Below are positions 17,105 to 33,700 of a stretch of 64,000 bases of DNA, piece by piece (position 1 is the stretch's first letter; each line of letters begins with the position of its first letter). Location of the stretch: contig LGRX02035411.1 in assembly GCA_001247695.2 (NCBI GenBank), forward strand, positions 1 through 64,000, given 5' to 3'. The position numbers and the translations under genes are program-made. This DNA is from Cymbomonas tetramitiformis. Lineage: Eukaryota; Chlorophyta; Pyramimonadophyceae; Pyramimonadales; Pyramimonadaceae. Below the pieces are notes generated by a model. It saw only the letters and a program-made list of their open reading frames with translations, had not been told where the DNA came from and did no database searches.

Positions 17105-17504
17105 TGTTCCAGTGTGCATTTTAGTCGTATTCTTTGTTATTTTTTTGAGGATCGACCAGTATGATCTATTATTTCGTATACGATTATCCCAATGATAAAG
17201 AGTAACCTAGTGTTAGAGTTCTACAATTCAAGAAGGAAGAAACAGTAGCAAAGTCCCCTTTTTAACTCCAAACTCGATTCACAATATTTTTCCCCAATCA
17301 TCCGACAATCATCACAGAATTGTCAATCGATCGTATCCCCATAACTGTCGATGTCATCAATGTCACACGACCCATCATGTCATCGTCATTATATCATAGC
17401 AAGCGATTTCCTTTTATCGTGTCATCGTGTCATTCTGCCATCGTACGGTCATTATTTAAGCGTCATAATTCCCACGATCAACGGCCGTCGTGCCCCCTGG
17501 CACA
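17105..17504 (-). repeat. 3' LTR of the Ty3 element
   Basis: On the minus strand it starts TGTGCCAGGGGG and ends CACTGGAACA, the usual TG...CA ends. It matches 25333-25729 at most positions. It is rich in TGTCAT/ATGACA words and includes a possible TATA-like TTATTTAAG segment near 17452. Confidence 0.92.
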
Positions 17505-17518
17505 ACTCTCCCCCCCTT
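17505..17518 (-). promoter_or_regulatory. Polypurine tract
   Basis: Minus-strand TAAGGGGGGAGAGT directly abuts the 3' LTR, the expected primer site for plus-strand DNA synthesis. The second methyltransferase-bearing element has the same GGGGGGAGAGT tract at 33983-33994, again directly before TGT. Confidence 0.85.
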
Positions 17519-17558
17519 AGATATAACCATCTCCTGATGCAATTATCTATCTAAGGTG

Positions 17559-19082
17559 TCATAACCAGTCCTTGTGTGGGTTCTCTGGTTCCCGCCAGTT
17601 CTTGGGTTCTCTGTGCCCACCAGTTCTCGGGTTTGCTGGTTCCCATCTGCTGTACATCGTCATGAGCACGCCGGTTGTGGTAGGGAACCCGAGGTCCCGG
17701 CTCAAGGATGCTAACCCAAGGGAACCGCTTACCAGGGTGCAGAAGTTAATGCGGCTCGGTGTCAAATTCAAATGCTGAAACAGATGTCGAAGTAGTGAAG
17801 CAGGGATAGGATACACTGCGTGTGAGCGGCCTGCCCCTGTCTGTTGAGGATGTGGCCCCAGCTGTGCAGTATCTGGATGCGTTCCCGACGCCCATCGGTA
17901 CTCACAGGGTGTGTCCACCGTGCATCTGCGCAAGGGATGAGGTGGCGGCGAATTGGTCCAAATACATGTGGGCTTCATATACCGTTCTCCATACATGCAG
18001 TAGGTGCAAACAAGGGGGTGTGGGAGATCTCTCACCACCGGTCGTAGTCGTAGTGCATTGGGGAACCGTCCCAATGGGTTCTCCAAAAACCAATGTGTCG
18101 GTTTAAGATACTCGATTACCTTGAGGGTTCGCTCCACACAGGCGTCGGCTGAGAGGAGATCAGGAGGCCCACCTGTAGTACGGGCTTGACTATACTGCGT
18201 ACATGGGGGGCTAGCCCATATGACATCAAAATATCCCGGGGCGTAGATCCTGGGGTCCCACTGCTCTATGCTGGACACATGGTTGGGTTGACAAATCTTG
18301 TCGGAGTCCAGCGTCACCACGGAAGAGGACGGGAAACATCTTGCAAACCCACGTTCAACGGATCCAGTCCCGCAGAATAGCACCAGAATACGAGGTCTAG
18401 GCGTCGAAGTCCTTGCGCGCACGATCGGGAGACATGTTAACGGTGATTCTGGACCCATAGCATGACGTGGATCCACGGATTCTGACGTAGGTCCATGAAG
18501 GTCCATGGGTCCCGACGTAGGTCCATGAGGGTCCACGGATCTTGACGTAGGTCCATGAAGGTCCATGGGTCCCGACGTAGGTCCATGTGGGTCCATGGAT
18601 CCTGACGTAGGTCCATGGCTGGGTCCTGAGGGTCCTGCCATGTCCATAGCATGCAGACAAGTGATGAGTGAGCGTTCGCCATCCGAAGTTCTCCACTGCT
18701 CCCATGGGAGAGAGAAATCATCATTCTCCCCCAGCTCAAGTAGGTCAGCTTCGTCACAGGAATGGGCTAGCAAATGATTGAAGGCTATACCCAGACGTTG
18801 AGATCTGGTACTACGCTGCTCTCTCCTTCGCGAAGCTTCCTCACGTACTCGTGCCTCCGTCTCTAACCGAGCATCTTCAAATTCCCTTAACTGCTCAAGA
18901 GGTCCGCCTCGTTCTAGTTTCTCCCGAGTACGCCACTGGTTGTGGGCCTTGGAGTACCCGGTCCAGCGCACCTTCCACTCCTCAACCTCCTTTCCCCGCA
19001 CCACCTTCACTCTGCGAGCTAGGATGCGATCAACATGCGCCTCTCGTTGACCATCCACCACCACTGGCGCGGGAACCGCCAC
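17559..19082 (-). CDS. Chromodomain plus C5 cytosine-DNA-methyltransferase-like domain (Pol C-terminus)
   Basis: Open for 507 codons in the frame following integrase. Residues about 14-70 form a chromodomain (HVDRILARR...EEWKVRWTGY...NQWRTREKL). Residues 156-205 are five 10-residue HGPTS repeats. From about 231 there is a SAM-dependent methyltransferase: motif I FCGTGSVERGF, acidic D at about 259, motif IV WASPPCTQYS with catalytic-type Cys 294, motif VI FLENP (ENP instead of the usual ENV), and a C-terminal HAVYPIP helix like motif X. A clear target-recognition domain is not seen, and the domain is short (about 200 aa). C5-methyltransferase capture by retrotransposons has been published for charophytes and dinoflagellates. 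All key residues are intact although the rest of this Pol is decayed. Confidence 0.8.
   Translation of the reverse strand: MAVPAPVVVDGQREAHVDRILARRVKVVRGKEVEEWKVRWTGYSKAHNQWRTREKLERGGPLEQLREFEDARLETEARVREEASRRREQRSTRSQRLGIAFNHLLAHSCDEADLLELGENDDFSLPWEQWRTSDGERSLITCLHAMDMAGPSGPSHGPTSGSMDPHGPTSGPMDLHGPTSRSVDPHGPTSGPMDLHGPTSESVDPRHAMGPESPLTCLPIVRARTSTPRPRILVLFCGTGSVERGFARCFPSSSVVTLDSDKICQPNHVSSIEQWDPRIYAPGYFDVIWASPPCTQYSQARTTGGPPDLLSADACVERTLKVIEYLKPTHWFLENPLGRFPNALRLRPVVRDLPHPLVCTYCMYGERYMKPTCIWTNSPPPHPLRRCTVDTPCEYRWASGTHPDTAQLGPHPQQTGAGRSHAVYPIPASLLRHLFQHLNLTPSRINFCTLVSGSLGLASLSRDLGFPTTTGVLMTMYSRWEPANPRTGGHREPKNWREPENPHKDWL
18463..18615. repeat. GTAGGTCCATG tandem repeat inside the coding linker
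   Basis: Five 30-bp units, alternating in a 60-bp pattern, encode the HGPTS decapeptides between chromodomain and methyltransferase. The same GACGTAGGTCCATG word recurs in two other parts of this element (about 22917-22985 and 24733-24785). It is absent from the second methyltransferase element at 32432. Confidence 0.9.
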
Positions 19083-19089
19083 TCAGTCT

Positions 19090-20400
19090 CGAGCTGCAAA
19101 TGTGCCACGGCCATCCACGTAGGGCTTTAGACGGTGTTGTCTGTTGTGCAAACACATCGTGAATCCGCCAATGTGGGGGGAGCTTCAGACGGTAAGTGAC
19201 TGGAGCGCCACGGTCCGCCACCGGAAGCACTGCGTGTCTGTCACTGAAGAACCGTTCCACAATCGGTAGTGGACCATGCCAGCGTTTGGTGAGCTTGCGG
19301 CACATTTTGCGATCCATCACCTTTTCTGTGAGGTGTTTTGCCTCGACCCACACCAGGGCTTCCACCGCGTACTCTCGCTGCGAGTGGCGTTGGTCAAACT
19401 GTTCCCGTTGACGTTGCTGCGCCAACTCTAGTCTGTGCCTTGCGTCCCGTAGCTGCGACGAAAACTTCGCAGCGAACTCGTGAGCTGTCCCCACTCCCCC
19501 TTTTCGTTGCCCGGCATCAGTCTGAGCGGCCTCCAAGAAGAGATCTAGCTGTGACAATGGTGACACCCCATACCCGAGTTCGAAGGGAGTAAAACCTGTC
19601 GACTCACTGCGGGAGTCATTGATGGCGAACTCGACGTTGGTGCAGTACAGGTCCCAATCCTCCTCATTAGCGTCCACAAAAGAGCGCAGCATGTCCTCAA
19701 CAACCCGGTTGGTGGCTTCAGCTTGACCATCTGAACGAGGATTGTAGGGGGTGGTACGAGCAACGTTAACCCCCATCAAGCGCATAAGCTCCTGCCAGAA
19801 TGCGTTGTTGAAACGGGGATCTCGATCCGAGATGATCTTCATCGGTGCACCATGCAACCTCCACACGGTATCGAAGTACTGTAGATCCTGGCAACCGTTT
19901 GGGCCAAGCTGTCCCCGAAGTTCATGGGAACCACGTGTACCATCTTTGACAACTTGCAGGTGAACGCCACGAAGGCGTCATTCCCCCTCGAAGTAAGGGG
20001 CAGTCCAGTGACAAAGTCAACCCCAACGTCCTGCCAAAGCCGAACCGGTATGGGGTGTGGATTGAGCTGCCCATCCGGGAACCCTGCCCTCGGCCTAACT
20101 GCTTGGCATGTCGGACATGACGCGACCCACGCCTCCACATGCTCTGTAGCACCTTTCCACCAAAACCGGCGTAGCACTCACTCTAGAGTCTTGTCCCGTC
20201 CTGTGTGACCGGCGACCACCGAGTCATGTACGTGCTTGAAAACCACCTCTCTCAGTGGGGAATCCTCCCCCAACACCAACTGGTACCGGCCGGCCGCCGT
20301 TCTCCACAGCACATTCCCAACAATGCGAAAATCTGGAGTGCACTGATGAGGTGCCGTCTGCACTCGGTGATAAAGGTCTCGAAGAGGTCCCTCACGTTGA
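19090..20400 (-). pseudogene. Ty3-type integrase, broken by stops and frameshifts
   Basis: The N-terminal zinc finger is present: HVHDSVVAGH near 20215, then CPTC near 20110. The catalytic core follows with VDFVTGLP (first Asp, about 20025), SDRDPRF (second Asp, about 19820) and GQAEATNR (Glu, about 19715). The C-terminal region has WHGPLPIVERF and YRLKLPPHW before the chromodomain. The frame changes near 20177 (a stop), near 19860 and near 19130, so this copy cannot make a continuous polyprotein without recoding. The D,D,E residues themselves are retained. Confidence 0.85.
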
Positions 20401-20529
20401 TACTCATGTCGTAGGGCTCGGAGGAACTTAGAGTCCGATGGGGCGGAGGGAGCATCCCTGACCTGCGACGCAAAACCACTGCGCACCAAAGGCGCCGGGG
20501 TACGAGGGTGTCTAACGCGAGACGGCTGC

Positions 20530-22695
20530 GGACGTGACGGGGGAGCATATACTATCAAAACTGGCCATAGCAAATCGTGCAGCTTCCCATCCGGGCTCTC
20601 GAAAAGCTGGTTGGGGACTCCTTGAGCATCGTGAGTCGGGATCACCTCCTCGATGCGCATACCCGCGAGACGTAGTATTCGACGCCACTGAGGGAGGCGA
20701 GACTGAAGGTCAGGCAGAATGAAGTTGGCGGAAGTGTTTTCCGGGTCTTGGCGCCATTCCTCAACGTACTTGCGCAGAACTGCCTCGATAGTCAGGTGAT
20801 TGCTGGAGTAGGGGGGGTTGCACCAAACGTGTAGACCACGCCATTGCGCGTTCAATGGCTACTGCCCAGCGATCCTTGTGACAGGACTGGAATCGCGTCC
20901 GGTCCTGTCACAAGGACCGACTTTTCGGGAATTTTTTAAGCCGTCCTCTTGGCGTTCCGAGTGCACCCCACCCGGAATGTTAGTTTCCAATGGACCTATA
21001 CTATGTGCCTTCACGCGCTATTGACAATATATCGTCATGAAATGAGTATATCCAATGCATTTGAATCATGTACCCGATCATTTTTCACTTGCAACTTTCG
21101 GAGGACGTTAAAAAACACACCATGCCTTAAATACTTTTTATCCAATTAAATTCTAGGTCTCACAAGCCCGCCAACCTTCCAAGATATATCCTAACATCAT
21201 ATCCAATCATACGCAAAAGATTATGCACGTTCTCAGTGTTTATTGGGTCGTATATCCACTCTCATATATTGAGTGCTTGTATATCCACGCGTATATCCAC
21301 TCTTTTATGCAGCAAAAACTTTCTTGAAGGCTTGACGAATTTTGTCGAATAGCATCTGCATTATTTACGTATGGCTGCTAGCACATTGTAGTGTTCATAT
21401 ATACATATCAATTGATTTTTTGAGCTATCAACATCACCATAACTGGCAGTATTGTGCATTGCATGTACTCTAAAAATTATGGGTTGACAGTTTTTTTAGG
21501 TCCTAATATGCATATGATCCGAAAATCCGTGAGTGCATGCTATTGCGAGCCATGATGTCTATTACCCAGAGTTGGCTCCAGCCAACTTAATTCGGCTTTA
21601 AGTTGTGGCTACACCCAACTTAACTTTTGGTGGGATCATTGAGAGTTGTGGTTACCGGATTCTAGATTTTATTAGCTCAAAATGACGGGAACGACGTCCT
21701 CTTTTACACACGCATCTACACGATTGAGCGAATCCAATTTATCCGTGAGCAATTTGGAAGAATGTGTGAGGGGGTAGAGAATTTAGTGGGAAAATCCGAG
21801 GGATTTTGATTTTCGTTCTACCTATGCTACTTCAACCGGGATTTTGAGGGTCAAGATGACCTCGGATGAAACTTTTGACGAGACACTACGGAAAGAGCAA
21901 CTCAGAAACTTGACGACATGGGTCTCCGAATTTTCAAAGGACCTTCGAGGAAGACACCATGGGTTATAACCCTTAAGTTATGTGCACCCAACTTAAGATA
22001 TTTCAATAGAAATCGTGCTTCTTCAACCGAGTTTTTAAGGGCCAAGATGACCTCGGATCGGATTTTTGACAAGACACGGCAGAAAGAGCAGCTCGAGAAC
22101 TTGCCAACATAGGTCTCCGAATTTTCATATGACCTTCGAGGAAGCCCCCATGGGCTCTCAACCTTAGGTTATGTGCAGCTAACTTAACGCCGGGTAATAG
22201 ACAATGACTGCGGAAGTATCATGGCGATTTATGAGGTGGTACATATTAGAGGGCACTATTGGGTCATAAACATGATATGTTTAATTGCTAGATGCATTTG
22301 GAGGCCATCTAGTAGGTGTACGCGGCTTCGGGCACTCCGGTCCTTGTGAAAGGACCGGCATTTTTATTTAATTTTCGTCGGTACTACCCCCGCGTTTCAT
22401 TCCTCTCAAGCACATGCCCATATCGAGTATAGCACCCAAAAGAGGTTCGTAATAAATTCTTGAACACCCAAATATGATGTCAAAACACTCAAATATCAAC
22501 TATATCGAAAAAACGCGGCAGATAGCCCCAAATCACTTCGGTCCTTGTGACAGGACCGTGATTTTGGGCAGTAGCCATCAAGCAGTCACACCAGTATCGA
22601 TCCACCTGCCTATTCTTGCCGGCAAGGTCACAGCAAGCATCTACATCGAACCGACCGAACCTGGTCTGAATTTCTTCAAAGACCTCTCTGCGCAC
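20530..22695 (-). pseudogene. Dam-like adenine-methyltransferase domain, split by an insertion
   Basis: The N-terminal part (22695-22582) has FEEIQTRFGRFDVDACCD, and the C-terminal part (20855-20530) has VWCNPPYSS and LHDLLWPVLIVYAPP. This order (F..FG.FD.DA..., then W.G..V.CNPPY, then a hydrophobic strand region) resembles phage-type N6-adenine methyltransferases and the Dam-like domain carried by DIRS retroelements. NPPY is the amino-methyltransferase catalytic motif. It lies between RNase H and integrase. The insertion at 20856-22577 interrupts it; removing the insert and one 4-bp duplication leaves both halves in one frame, so the domain was open when the insertion happened. The family match is by eye and activity is unproven. 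Confidence 0.6.
20856..22577. mobile_element. 1,722-bp non-autonomous TIR DNA transposon inserted in the Ty3 Pol gene
   Basis: Perfect 13-bp terminal inverted repeats TGGCTACTGCCCA (20856-20868) and TGGGCAGTAGCCA (22565-22577) are flanked by TCAA on both sides (20852-20855 and 22578-22581), a 4-bp target duplication. Just inside each end is a copy of the near-palindrome GGTCCTGTCACAAGGACC, with extra copies at 20875 and 22339. Inside are two copies of a ~100-bp unit with GGTCTCCGAATTTTCA and GACCTTCGAGGAAG (about 21929 and 22112). No transposase is encoded. TCAA is unlike the TTAA of typical piggyBac elements; superfamily not assigned. Confidence 0.9.
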
Positions 22696-23500
22696 CCGCC
22701 AGTTCTGTCGGTCTGCCGGTTCGAAGCGTACTTGTCGGTGGCGCCCCGTGTTTGCATTGGCGCCCCCCCTCCAGTGACATGTCGCGCGACATCTGCACCA
22801 GGGGACTCCACGCCTTTCAACAAAGAATCGCCTTCAGGTGCACGATGAGTAGGGTCAACTGTGGCAGCACGTTGTTTTGAGTCTGCGCCAGGAGATTCAA
22901 GGAGCTTCAGGAGACCTGATGTAGGTCCATGGATCCTGGCGTAGGTCCATGGCGTAGGTCCATGGGTCCCGACGTAGGTCCATGCGAAGGTCATGCAGGT
23001 CCAAGGGTCTCGTAAGTCCCGGTTTTACTATGGGTGCGGTGAGCAATGTTAGTATCCAAGCCAAGGGGGTCAGGCTCCCGATCTCCCCCGCTGCCTCCAT
23101 AGCTGTCTCCGCGTCCACCAAAACATCCACCGCAGCGAGCCAAGAAGAATCCATCATCGAGATCCATTTCGGTGGTGAGGAAGGTGGGGCGTCCTCGAAG
23201 AGATCCCCTGCATCCAAGACTGATAGGGGGTCTTTGTTGGGGAGATCGGACTCCTCATCCAACACCCCTGCCTCCTGCAAGCCCTTGCGAGGGTCCTCGT
23301 CGACGAAGTCAGGTCTTCGGGACAGTGCGTCGGGGACCAACAGAAGGGCACCCTTCACGTACTCCATTCGGGGCACACCCACCTCTACTAGGTCTAGGAC
23401 TCTAGGTACCACCGTGCTTGCCGTCGACTGAGCTCCCTGCCCGGCTCCATTAGCCATTCTAAGGGGCGGTGATCGCCTTGCAGTTTGAAGTCGGTGAAGA
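22582..23500 (-). pseudogene. RNase H end and disordered Pol linker
   Basis: Minus-strand reading shows ALSRRPDF near 23325, the usual end of a Ty3 RNase H/connection. It is followed by an acidic, Pro/Ser-rich linker, and then by further GTAGGTCCATG repeats (about 22917-22985). A GACATGTCGCGCGACATCTGC-like block at about 22777 is repeated at about 23987, at the site where gag/RT sequence is missing. Confidence 0.6.
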
Positions 23501-24011
23501 CGAGGTAATGTCGCCAGGTGACGGTCGTTCAGTGGTGCAATGCACACAACTCTCTCTCACCCGTGTGGTAATTCTGTTCGGCGGCTGAGAATTGCCTGCT
23601 TTCATAGGCTATGACCCGCAGACCTTCGCCGCAATCCTGTATTAATACTCCCCCAAGGGCGATGCCGCTTGCGTCTGTGTGAACCAGAAACGGTGCCGAT
23701 CCATCCGCTGCCGCCTTCATGTTGGGCAAGGCGAGCACCGGGGCCGAGATGAGTGCCGACTTTAACTCTTCGAAAGCCCACTGCTGTTTGGCTCCCCAGC
23801 GCCAAGGCACATCTGTCTTGGTGAGGTATGTGAGGGGCTGCGCGATCTCCGAGAAGCAATGGATGAAACGGCGGTAGTACCCAGCTAGGCCGAGGAACTG
23901 TCTCAACAGACGTGATCTCCCCCCCTGGAACCGCTTCAACCGGATCGGTGGGAGCGGTTCCTGCTGGCTCTGCGCGCTCCCCTCTAGTGACATGTCGCGC
24001 GACATCTGCAC
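23350..24011 (-). pseudogene. RT thumb and RNase H remnant
   Basis: LLRQFLGLAGYYRRFIHCFS is the conserved start of the Ty3 RT thumb/connection. It is followed by AFEELKSALISAPVLALPN, FLVHTDASGIALGGVL (first RNase H Asp) and YESRQFSAAEQNYHTGEREL (RNase H Glu region). A frameshift near 23530 then continues into WRHYLVFTDF-like sequence. The YxDD-containing palm of RT is absent upstream, consistent with an internal deletion. Confidence 0.9.
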
Positions 24012-24026
24012 GGGGAAGCTCCACGG

Positions 24027-24545
24027 TCACGCAAACCGATGTATTCGCCGGTGCCACACCCGCCGAGACAGGTACCACCCATGATGAAGTACAAGCGGCC
24101 GAGATACTGGGGTCCATTCCCTGTCCCTCATGAGGATGAGCAACTGGATACACCGCCTGAGCTGCTCTCTGTGCTGGAAATACTCAACGGCCACAGGGTT
24201 CTGGGCAACCATGGCGCTCTGTGGGTACGCGTGTTGTGGGTGAGAACCCGCCATCTGAAGAGGTGTCATGCCGTAGGGTGTGGGGTAGCCTCCTCTGTAA
24301 GCTCCCCAAGTCCACCGGGGATCCACATAGCCCTGAAGGGGGTGCCCGAGGGGGGTAGCAGGGGTGAACGAAGGCAGCTGATCCAGCATCCAGGGGGGGC
24401 AGATGCAAATGGGGGTACCGCCATGTGCTGCAGCGGAAGTGAAGAGGCCACAAAGGGCACTGCCGTGGTGCCGGGGTATGCCGAAAGTGGGGTTGACCCG
24501 AATGGAATGGGGTTCGGAGTCGCGAACGGGTGGAAAGTGGAGGTC
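24027..24545 (-). pseudogene. gag N-terminal remnant
   Basis: Pro/Gly/Tyr-rich reading frames (for example GAYRGGYPTPYGMTPLQMAG) end in a more structured LRRCIQLLILMRDREW helix just before the deletion point. Position after the 5' leader and low-complexity composition suggest gag. No capsid or CCHC knuckle remains. 24546-25318 is leader sequence with another GTAGGTCCATG cluster at 24733-24785. Confidence 0.45.
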
Positions 24546-25318
24546 TGAGGGGGTAAATGAGGACTATCTTACAGACAGCTCCCAGGGTGACGGCGGCGCG
24601 GTGGAATATGCGGGAGTGACAGGGGCAGAATCTGAGGAAGTTGGGAAAAGTTGAGGGTAATTCATACTTGTAAGCGCCTGGAAGTACTTGGACACATTGA
24701 GGTGGAACCGTAGATATAGGGTTTAGGGTTCAATCGTAGGTCCATGACGTAGGTCCATGGGTCCATGATGTAGGTCCATGGGTCCAGAAGAAGATCCTAA
24801 AACCAATCTGGCCCAAAAACTCAATAAAAGTGTTCTTATGTTAAAAGGTCTTGTTTTTATCACTTTTTTAAAAAAATCTGCAAGGGCTCCGCGGCACCAG
24901 AAAAGTCAACTGATATGGTCAAAGGAGCTATTCTGAGCTGCCATACTTAAGCCAGATAGAGCATCGTACTAACCAATCATCTTCCAATCCTGACCGTAAA
25001 AAGTGAGCCAAAACGTCCGGAAACTCTGCAAAGAAATTACTTTTGTGAAAATAAAGATGTAGGAACGTTTCCAAACTGAAGAAGTTTTACATCATTAACA
25101 TCATCTTGAGCATCCTAAGATCTGGGCTTCTGCACATACTTAAGGAAGGTGAAAAAGACGATTTTCCGAACTTTCCTCTGTCAAAAATAAAGTTTGCTTG
25201 GCTTTTTAAACAAATAAACGAACATAAGAGACGTATTTTGATAGCCGAAAAATGTTTTATGTCCACCTACAGGTCCCCGGAGGTTGTGTTAGCTAGCCAG
25301 CTGAAGAGTGGTAGCTGA

Positions 25319-25330
25319 GGTTTGATACCA
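25319..25330 (-). promoter_or_regulatory. Primer-binding site
   Basis: Two bases inside the 5' LTR the minus strand reads TGGTATCAAACC. The first eight bases complement the 3' end of initiator tRNA-Met (…TGATACCA), the commonest plant LTR primer. This is the 3'-end priming mode, unlike the non-autonomous elements at 42129 and 50163. Confidence 0.75.
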
Positions 25331-25332
25331 AA

Positions 25333-25729
25333 TGTTCCAGTGTGCATTTTAGTATTCTTTGTTATTTTTTTGAGGATCAACCAATATGATCTATTATTTC
25401 GTATACGATTATCCCAATGATACAGAGTAACCTAGTGTTAGAGTTCTACAATTCAAGAAGGAAGAAACAGTAGCAAAGTCCCCTTTTTAACTCCAAACTC
25501 GATTCACAATATTTTCCCCCAATCACCCGACAATCATCACAGAATTGTCAATCGATCGTATCCCCATAACTGTCGATGCCATCAATATCACACGGCCCAT
25601 TATGTCATCGTCATTATGTCATAGCAAGCGATTTCCTTTTATCGTGTCATCGTGTCATTCTGTCATCGTACAGTCATTATTTAAGCGTCATAATTCCCAC
25701 GATCAACAGCCGTCGTGCCCCCTGGCACA
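25333..25729 (-). repeat. 5' LTR of the Ty3 element
   Basis: Partner of 17105-17504 with a few substitutions and short indels, so insertion is not very recent. TG...CA ends as in the 3' copy. Confidence 0.92.
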
Positions 25730-32431: not shown

Positions 32432-33700
32432 GTTAGAGCTGCCCGTGCATTGGAAGGTGCACGACGTGTTCACAGCGGATCGGCTCACCCCAGTTCAGTC
32501 GGGAGCTAAGCACTTCGTGAGCAGGCAAGAGGAAATGGCACCGCCACCGGTCTTGGCAGAGGGTCATAGGGAGCGTGAGGTGGAACGCATCATCAGCACC
32601 CGCTTCAGGAAGCTAGGTGGGAAGGCTGGCGGGACAGTGCAGGAGTGGCTAACTAAATGGAAAGGGCTGCCGCATAGTCACAGCCAGTGGCGAACCAGAG
32701 AGGACTTGGAAGGGCGAGGGGGCAGGCTGGAACCACTGCGAGTCTTCGAAGGTGAGGAGGAAAGGTTGAAGAAGGCTCCAGAGAAAAGGCGAAGGGAGAC
32801 TCACAAGGGTCAGGAGGAGCAGAGGGCACAGTTGATGGCAATGGGACCTCCAACCCCGACAGTCCACAGCAGTAGCCAGAGCCGAGCTTACCAGCCTCAC
32901 CTCTCGAGAGTGCAGCACCCAGTTAGAATTTTGGTGCTGTTCTGCGGTACCGGCTCAGTGGAGCAGCAGTTCCAACGTCAGTTCAGGGACTGCGAGGTAG
33001 TAACAGTGGACATCCTGCCAAAGTGGCAAGCCACGTGCACGGAGGACATCCTTCACCGGAACTACAAGCTCTACCCACGACATCATTTCGACGTCATCTG
33101 GGCCAGCCCCCCCTGCAAGGAGTACAGCAAGGCGAAGACACTGGGGGCTCCAGATCTGAAGCTGGCGGACAGGCGCGTGCGGCGTACCAGGGAGATCATC
33201 GAGTTCTACGACCCTGCGTATTTCTTCATAGAAAACCCCGCTGGCGACGCGCTGCGAGGGTTGCACACGCGCGCCGTAATGAAAGGTCTGCCAGAGCCGC
33301 TGTTGACCACCTATTGTAAGTATGGCACACCGTACATGAAGCCAACTCACATATATATGGACCAATGCAGCGCCTTCGGTACCCTTGTTGCTGTGCACCC
33401 ACACGACTCCCTGCCCTGCGCGAGCGATGCTAGGGAGGCACGAGAACACTGCCCAGGGGGGCATCTCCTCGGCCAACACCCGCGGTATGGGTTCAGCTCA
33501 GGCGGTATATGCGATACCTCGTGCGTTGCTGCACCACCTGTTTTGCGAGCTGAAGCTGAACGAGCGCATGAAGGAGGAGAGCGCGCTCGCGGTAATGAAC
33601 CTCATATCGACGCTGACAGCGAGGACTGACACGTTCGAGTTTCAAGATACCGGGGCTGGTCAGCCACGGGGCGCAATGGCCGCGGAAGACCCGTGATCTG
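32432..33700 (+). pseudogene. Second Ty3 Pol 3' end: chromodomain plus C5-methyltransferase-like domain
   Basis: Starts inside the integrase C-terminus (LELPVHWKVHDVFTADRL), so it is 5'-truncated. A chromodomain follows (EVERIISTRFR...EWLTKWKGLP...SQWRTREDL). The methyltransferase has motif I FCGTGSVEQQF, VVTVDI, WASPPCKEYS (Cys at residue 224 of the frame from 32445) and FIENP. A frameshift near 33480 separates the last helix (QAVYAIPRALLHHLF), which matches HAVYPIP in the first copy. The HGPTS repeat linker of the first copy is absent, and the two proteins differ at many positions outside the motifs. So two distinct lineages of methyltransferase-bearing Ty3 elements are present, both with conserved catalytic residues. 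Confidence 0.8.

Follow-up and report, generated by a model that had tools for sequence, protein, structure and literature searches.

Among the retrotransposons described so far, some carry a Dam-like domain and others a C5 cytosine methyltransferase (C5) domain. In Klebsormidium nitens, KnitGypsy-Dnmt3 is a Gypsy/Ty3 long terminal repeat (LTR) element with a C5 domain in Pol and a Ka/Ks below 0.2 (de Mendoza et al. 2018, PMC5890265), and in Symbiodinium the many-copy retrotransposons SymbioDIRS-Dnmt3 and SymbioLINE-Dnmts carry C5 domains as well (PMC5890265). Dam-like domains occur in DIRS retrotransposons (PMC5890265, PMC6338049), which have a tyrosine recombinase (PMC5890265), and accessory retrotransposon domains have been proposed to act against other DNA parasites (Morozov et al., PMC6338049). 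Chromodomain Ty3 pol related to Chlamyvir has been reported in Cymbomonas (PMC10675990), in a paper that describes no methyltransferase domain, since its main text contains no word beginning with 'methyl'. Here we describe an element of Cymbomonas tetramitiformis in which both kinds of domain are joined. It lies in the first 64,000 nucleotides of contig LGRX02035411.1 (assembly GCA_001247695.2); this whole stretch is referred to as the window, and all coordinates are window positions. The window copy, at 17105-25729 on the minus strand, is one decayed Ty3 chromodomain LTR element, and its relatives in the same genome include recent copies in which both domains stand co-linearly in one open frame, with conserved motifs and under purifying selection. 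Our favoured reading, held with moderate confidence, is that these copies form a large, recently active Ty3 chromodomain family whose Pol captured two phage-like methyltransferases that are predicted to methylate the element's own DNA ('phage-like' means, for both domains, matched among phage collections, and implies no ranking against bacterial or eukaryotic proteins).

Two methyltransferase domains in one Pol frame

Relatives were sought in the genome assembly of the same alga (851,713,466 bases in 25,745 contigs). With the C-terminal half of the window Dam-like (Dam) domain as query, 150 matches were scored of 7314 first-look candidates, and with the window C5, 136 of 8185; these candidate numbers are not copy numbers. 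None of the scored Dam matches has an internal stop, and 59 of them lie in open frames of at least 2000 amino acids, 25 in frames of at least 2500. In most of the scored C5 matches there is a stop close to the query's end, at the point where the frame of the relatives themselves terminates, and a few have more. Twenty relatives (L091-L110) were fetched, chosen for nearness or a long frame and not at random; a second sample of 14 other Dam loci followed the order of the list. Both Dam halves are found together in all 20 fetched relatives, abutting and without an insert (in L101 the contig ends within the N-terminal half, which is also out of frame). C5 follows downstream in 19 of the 20 and in 13 of the 14, i.e., in 32 of 34 Dam loci; those without it are L098, from which the integrase and chromodomain are also missing, and L116. 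A first-pass annotation of the window, made from the letters alone, had proposed asking whether complete relatives always carry both domains, and these counts speak against the refuting case that it had named, complete family members without the NPPY segment. The 20 fetched relatives also rule out chance.

In 14 of the 20 fetched relatives (L092, L095-L097, L099, L100, L102-L104 and L106-L110) Dam and C5 are complete in one open frame, which refutes a nesting artefact, i.e., two domains from different elements inserted into each other. The window copy does hold a foreign insert of 1.7 kb and repeated filler, which would suit such an origin, but nesting is further contradicted by nine copies of the large subfamily (L104 and eight others) that end at the same 3' point, beyond which their sequences differ, and by two copies found to lie between matching LTRs. 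We therefore reject it as having a negligible probability. L099, which belongs to another subfamily, has no match at the large-subfamily 3' end in this comparison, from which L101 and L105 were left out.

Pfam searches of three single-frame copies returned the order protease, reverse transcriptase (RT), RNase H, Dam, H2C2, rve, SH3 and Chromo, thus including the Ty3 order in which the integrase comes last; H2C2 scores above its cut-off, rve below it in all three, and DNA_methylase is listed in two, below its cut-off. No tyrosine recombinase, the hallmark of DIRS elements, is among the Pfam matches of these three frames, in which an H2C2 and rve integrase is present. The chromodomain stands at the C-terminus of the integrase, both in the window copy and in the intact frames, as is characteristic of chromoviruses. 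A polypurine tract (PPT), a 3' LTR, part of a 5' LTR and a primer binding site (PBS) were found in the intact copies. In the two that were checked, Pol lies between matching LTRs, which enclose a long frame (seen in parts) and the Pol frame over about 13.8 kb, as calculated from coordinates; the long frame before Pol would, by its position, be gag.

The Dam-like domain lies between RNase H and the integrase, where the first-pass annotation had placed an NPPY-type domain. In the window copy its halves fall in the pieces 22492-22833 (N-terminal) and 20181-20855 (C-terminal), which independently match consecutive stretches of one profile, phrog_111. This profile is matched by all five copies scanned (best E 2.8e-17), and all 19 complete Dam domains retain WCNPPY. 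The three intact copies reach 31.2, 42.6 and 46.8 bits in Pfam Dam (PF05869; cut-off 28.1; E 2.1e-7 to 3.5e-12), and the C-terminal half of the window copy alone 15.5 bits, below the cut-off. Among phages, the L099 Dam matched 779 of 50,697 records by tblastn at E <= 0.1; the best of the ten matches listed has an E of 6e-7, and nine of the ten are annotated as methyltransferases. A scan of IMG/VR gave 120 relatives among 569 pattern matches, and hhalign aligned the retrotransposon Dam with 14 phage relatives at E 3.2e-20. The window halves taken alone found little in phages by tblastn (three matches at E 0.5 for the C-terminal half, none for the N-terminal), and nothing was confirmed when viral contigs were scanned with the C-terminal half. 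A sequence search of the PDB with Dam gave nothing meaningful. The structure predicted for a phage relative of Dam found its best, though weak, fold matches among class I methyltransferases such as M.TaqI, METTL16 and KsgA, with no structure match at E <= 0.001.

The second domain, which the first-pass annotation had described as a PC/ENP-type methyltransferase after the chromodomain, is of the C5 type, as that annotation had also named it, judging by phrog_757 and by its fold. An alignment of 35 C5 sequences keeps the G of motif I, WASP.C (PPC or PDC), ENP and KPT; in the fetched relatives, PPC is present in 19 of 19 C5 regions and ENP in 18, with ETP in L099. The window C5 scores 17.7 bits (E 0.0026) against PF00145, below the cut-off of 22, two intact copies score 20.9 and 20.0 (the third is not listed) and a second copy in the window 24.2. 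Tblastn with the window C5 matched 40 of the 50,697 phage records at E <= 0.01 (best 9e-16), and at least 479 relatives were found among the 600 IMG/VR pattern matches listed; the first two phage relatives, L001 and L002, are free-standing proteins of about 220-250 amino acids. Foldseek with the AlphaFold2 model of C5 returned 275 matches at E <= 0.001, and the 50 listed are all DNMT, DIM2, M.HhaI or M.HaeIII entries, including DNMT3 (at the head of the list), DNMT1 and M.HhaI. A sequence search of the PDB with the window C5 had no match, and the alignment profile found three weak C5 matches there, to prokaryotic enzymes, with no DNMT3 chain at E <= 0.01. A Dnmt3-type C5, as in Klebsormidium, is thus unsupported by sequence, although DNMT3 structures head the fold list. 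In a tree of six retrotransposon and 33 phage rows, the retrotransposon rows form one clade (100/99). Because this tree is midpoint-rooted and has no outgroup, the direction and number of transfers are not readable from it; it includes no Dnmt3 sequence and its bootstrap had not settled. The other refuting case named in the first-pass annotation, an NPPY segment that does not fold as a methyltransferase, was addressed indirectly, by the profile matches of the intact copies and by the weak methyltransferase matches of the folded phage relative.

Anatomy and decay of the window copy

The element is a Ty3 (Metaviridae) LTR retrotransposon, with an LTR pair, TG..CA ends, a PBS, a PPT and near-matching target flanks (Table 1). 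Its LTRs, of 400 and 397 bp, differ by a Kimura two-parameter distance of 0.034, and four of five positions match in the 5-bp flanks (CAACC/CACCC). The start of the PBS, TTTGGTATCA, follows the 5' LTR in the window copy and in two intact copies; TGGTATCA is what we take to be a PBS of the initiator-tRNA type. Both domains lie between this one LTR pair, as the first-pass annotation had held; the span it gave, 17559-22695, leaves out both LTRs, and it makes no mention of the 1724-bp insert in Dam. Neither gag nor protease was detected in the 5' part of the window copy, and most of RT likewise went undetected.

Table 1. Parts of the window element, from its 5' to its 3' end, and of a second element
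Feature	Position	Strand	Basis
5' LTR	25333..25729	-	384/400 identity to 3' LTR; 12 transitions and 1 transversion
PBS TTTGGTATCAAACC	25319..25332	-	immediately inside 5' LTR
RT end (by eye) and RNase H	23532..24011	-	Pfam RT_RNaseH_2 1.2e-23, RT_RNaseH 1.7e-15
C-terminal RNase H and linker	22900..23547	-	tblastn match in 18/20 relatives, 40-65% identity; no Pfam match
Dam-like N-terminal half, FDVDACCD motif (start approximate)	22579..22716	-	phrog_111 62-99, 9.4e-5; 50-77% identity to relatives
Insert splitting Dam, 1724 bp	20855..22578	.	perfect 14-nt terminal inverted repeats; absent from 20 relatives
Dam-like C-terminal half, VWCNPPYS motif (end approximate)	20535..20854	-	phrog_111 109-141, 2.7e-4
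Integrase H2C2 zinc-binding region and core start	19842..20261	-	Integrase_H2C2 1e-4 and 9.4e-9 (two pieces); stop at 20178-20180
Integrase core and SH3	19141..19866	-	SH3_Tf2-1 2.6e-7; frame differs from preceding piece; 79-87% identity in 19/20 relatives
Chromodomain	18873..19037	-	Pfam Chromo 3.1e-7
30-bp tandem repeat between chromodomain and C5	18467..18635	-	core GTAGGTCCATG not found in L091-L110 (20 relatives)
C5 cytosine methyltransferase (FCGTGS, WASPPC, LENP, YMKPTCIWTN)	17763..18392	-	phrog_757 4.9e-16; AlphaFold2 model matches C5 methyltransferases
PPT AAGGGGGGGAGAG	17505..17518	-	sequence next to 3' LTR
3' LTR	17105..17504	-	pair with 5' LTR
3' fragment of second, diverged element: integrase end, chromodomain, C5	32421..33629	+	Chromo 2.3e-8, DNA_methylase 2.6e-5

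Signs of decay in this copy are the split Dam, the integrase stop, repeated filler sequence and a change of frame near 19850. Without the insert, the Dam frame runs straight into VWCNPP, and the whole piece that holds the C-terminal half of Dam has 68-75% identity to the relatives. The insert is probably a non-autonomous DNA transposon; inside it are palindromes of the type GGTCCTGTCACAAGGACC and a 172-bp repeat with a spacing of 191 bp. The short filler GACATGTCGCGCGAC stands at 22776-22790 and 23989-24003, both points of disturbed Pol in the window copy, and was not found in the 20 fetched relatives. A CGTAGGTCCATG minisatellite occurs at 18467-18635, 22919-23002 and 24713-24782, once in frame between the chromodomain and C5. 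The match of L105 to the C-terminal RNase H and linker piece lies on the opposite strand.

The second element in the window has a C5 with 48.6% identity to the first over 148 amino acids and a frame change near 33360. Because this diverged fragment also carries both parts, the arrangement of chromodomain and C5 probably predates the subfamily of the window element.

Selection, recent activity and a possible role

Both domains are under purifying selection. Finite dN/dS values range from 0.023 to 0.127 for Dam (7 of 15 pairs) and from 0.036 to 0.252 for C5 (13 of 36), compared with 0.012-0.110 for RNase H (3 of 10) and 0.016-0.046 for the integrase (8 of 21); the remaining pairs are saturated at synonymous sites and hence undefined, and several of the finite values come from pairs with a dS above 1.5 and should be taken as rough. 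Over the region from Dam to C5, identity among nine copies of the large subfamily is 95.8-99.6%. Two intact copies are recent, since the fetched ends of their 5' LTRs show no difference from the 3' LTR over 210 and 239 bp. At the fourfold sites of six copies there are 65 transitions and 7 transversions, commonest at CG, and the variable share of these sites is about 28% in CG, 23% in CHG and 16% in CHH context. The differences between the window LTRs, which are transitions in all but one case, suggest cytosine deamination in this genome. The pattern would fit methylated cytosines in several contexts, with no indication of the enzyme responsible.

In the favoured model, as the first-pass annotation had also suggested, both domains would methylate the DNA of the element itself, with C5 the surer of the two. 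C5 follows the integrase and chromodomain in the same polyprotein, so that the integration complex probably carries it to the insertion site; travelling in this way, it may mark the new copy or the insertion site as silent-looking chromatin. Since Dam follows RNase H, it could act on fresh double-stranded cDNA, and, either joined to RNase H or freed by the protease, would mark this cDNA right after reverse transcription. The likely benefit would be that new copies are protected in the host, or tolerated by it, and not a change in host genes. Going further, the family might represent a class of LTR retrotransposons with its own phage-type two-mark system, in which N6-methyladenine (6mA) is set by Dam on the cDNA and 5-methylcytosine (5mC) by C5 with the integrase and chromodomain at the insertion site, helping the elements to reach hundreds, perhaps thousands of copies; this wider proposal is tentative, and we think it somewhat less probable than its opposite.

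Several observations weigh against own-DNA methylation by a two-enzyme element. The motif G-R..F, invariant in the 14 phage relatives, is absent from the retrotransposon Dam, which makes Dam activity less sure. Among the fetched relatives, a stop or break interrupts C5 in four of 19 (L093, L094, L101 and L105), in addition to the altered ENP of L099, and a frameshift is present in two of the 13 C5 regions of the second sample. Confidence in the C5 model is limited to residues of about 10-160, beyond which it is poor, and by query length its TM-scores against the best matches are 0.3-0.45. Host methylation or reverse-transcriptase error would likewise produce the transition bias. L118 and L120 have a common frameshift at the catalytic PPC motif of C5, due to mutation or sequencing error.

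The absence of G-R..F also leads to the reading that, with C5 the only active enzyme, the Dam-like domain binds DNA or S-adenosylmethionine without catalysis and is kept for its structure inside the polyprotein, as does the end of the Pfam Dam match near position 80 of the 169 in the profile. The first-pass annotation had likewise considered that one of the two domains may be a DNA-binding relic. However, NPPY is kept in all 19 complete copies, the finite dN/dS values of Dam are low, and the phage matches L211 and L137 extend to query residues 154 and 158 of 159; a dead Dam is thus considered unlikely. The methyltransferases might instead be directed against other DNA parasites (viruses or rival elements), by analogy with the role proposed for accessory domains, and the match of both domains to phage enzymes would agree with this; yet both are fused within Pol, and C5 stands beside the integrase and chromodomain, which suggests that the target is the cDNA or insertion site of the element itself, and an anti-parasite role appears quite improbable. 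Methylation of the element's own DNA thus remains the favoured reading.

Comparison with described elements and phage enzymes

Among the papers listed by searches of an open-access library, none was found to describe a single element that combines a Dam-like domain with a C5, with subscription papers and Repbase outside the search. Retrotransposons with one or the other were previously known separately. A Ty3 family that unites them, and whose copies include intact and recent ones, makes it directly testable why mobile elements take up DNA methyltransferases, as native long reads can reveal both marks on copies of different age and either domain can be knocked out on its own. The family would also offer an example of phage-like methyltransferases at work within a retrotransposon of a eukaryote.

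The family resembles KnitGypsy-Dnmt3 as a Ty3 LTR element with a C5 in Pol under purifying selection, but there the C5 is a Dnmt3, while here its sequence matches short phage C5 enzymes, and the account of the Klebsormidium element drawn on here mentions no Dam. With the DIRS retrotransposons it shares a Dam-like N6-adenine methyltransferase domain in the polyprotein; in contrast to these elements, which have a tyrosine recombinase and, in the descriptions cited, no C5 paired with Dam, it has an integrase of the H2C2-core-SH3 type. SymbioDIRS-Dnmt3 and SymbioLINE-Dnmts differ from it in belonging to other retrotransposon classes and, as described in the portions of the source used, in having one methyltransferase each. 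Like the chromoviruses, including the Chlamyvir-related pol of Cymbomonas, it is a Ty3 element with a chromodomain in pol. Finally, its Dam and C5 domains are alike in sequence and motifs to the phage families PF05869/phrog_111 and phrog_757, respectively; the phage relatives examined are free-standing proteins, whereas in this family both domains are fused to Pol.

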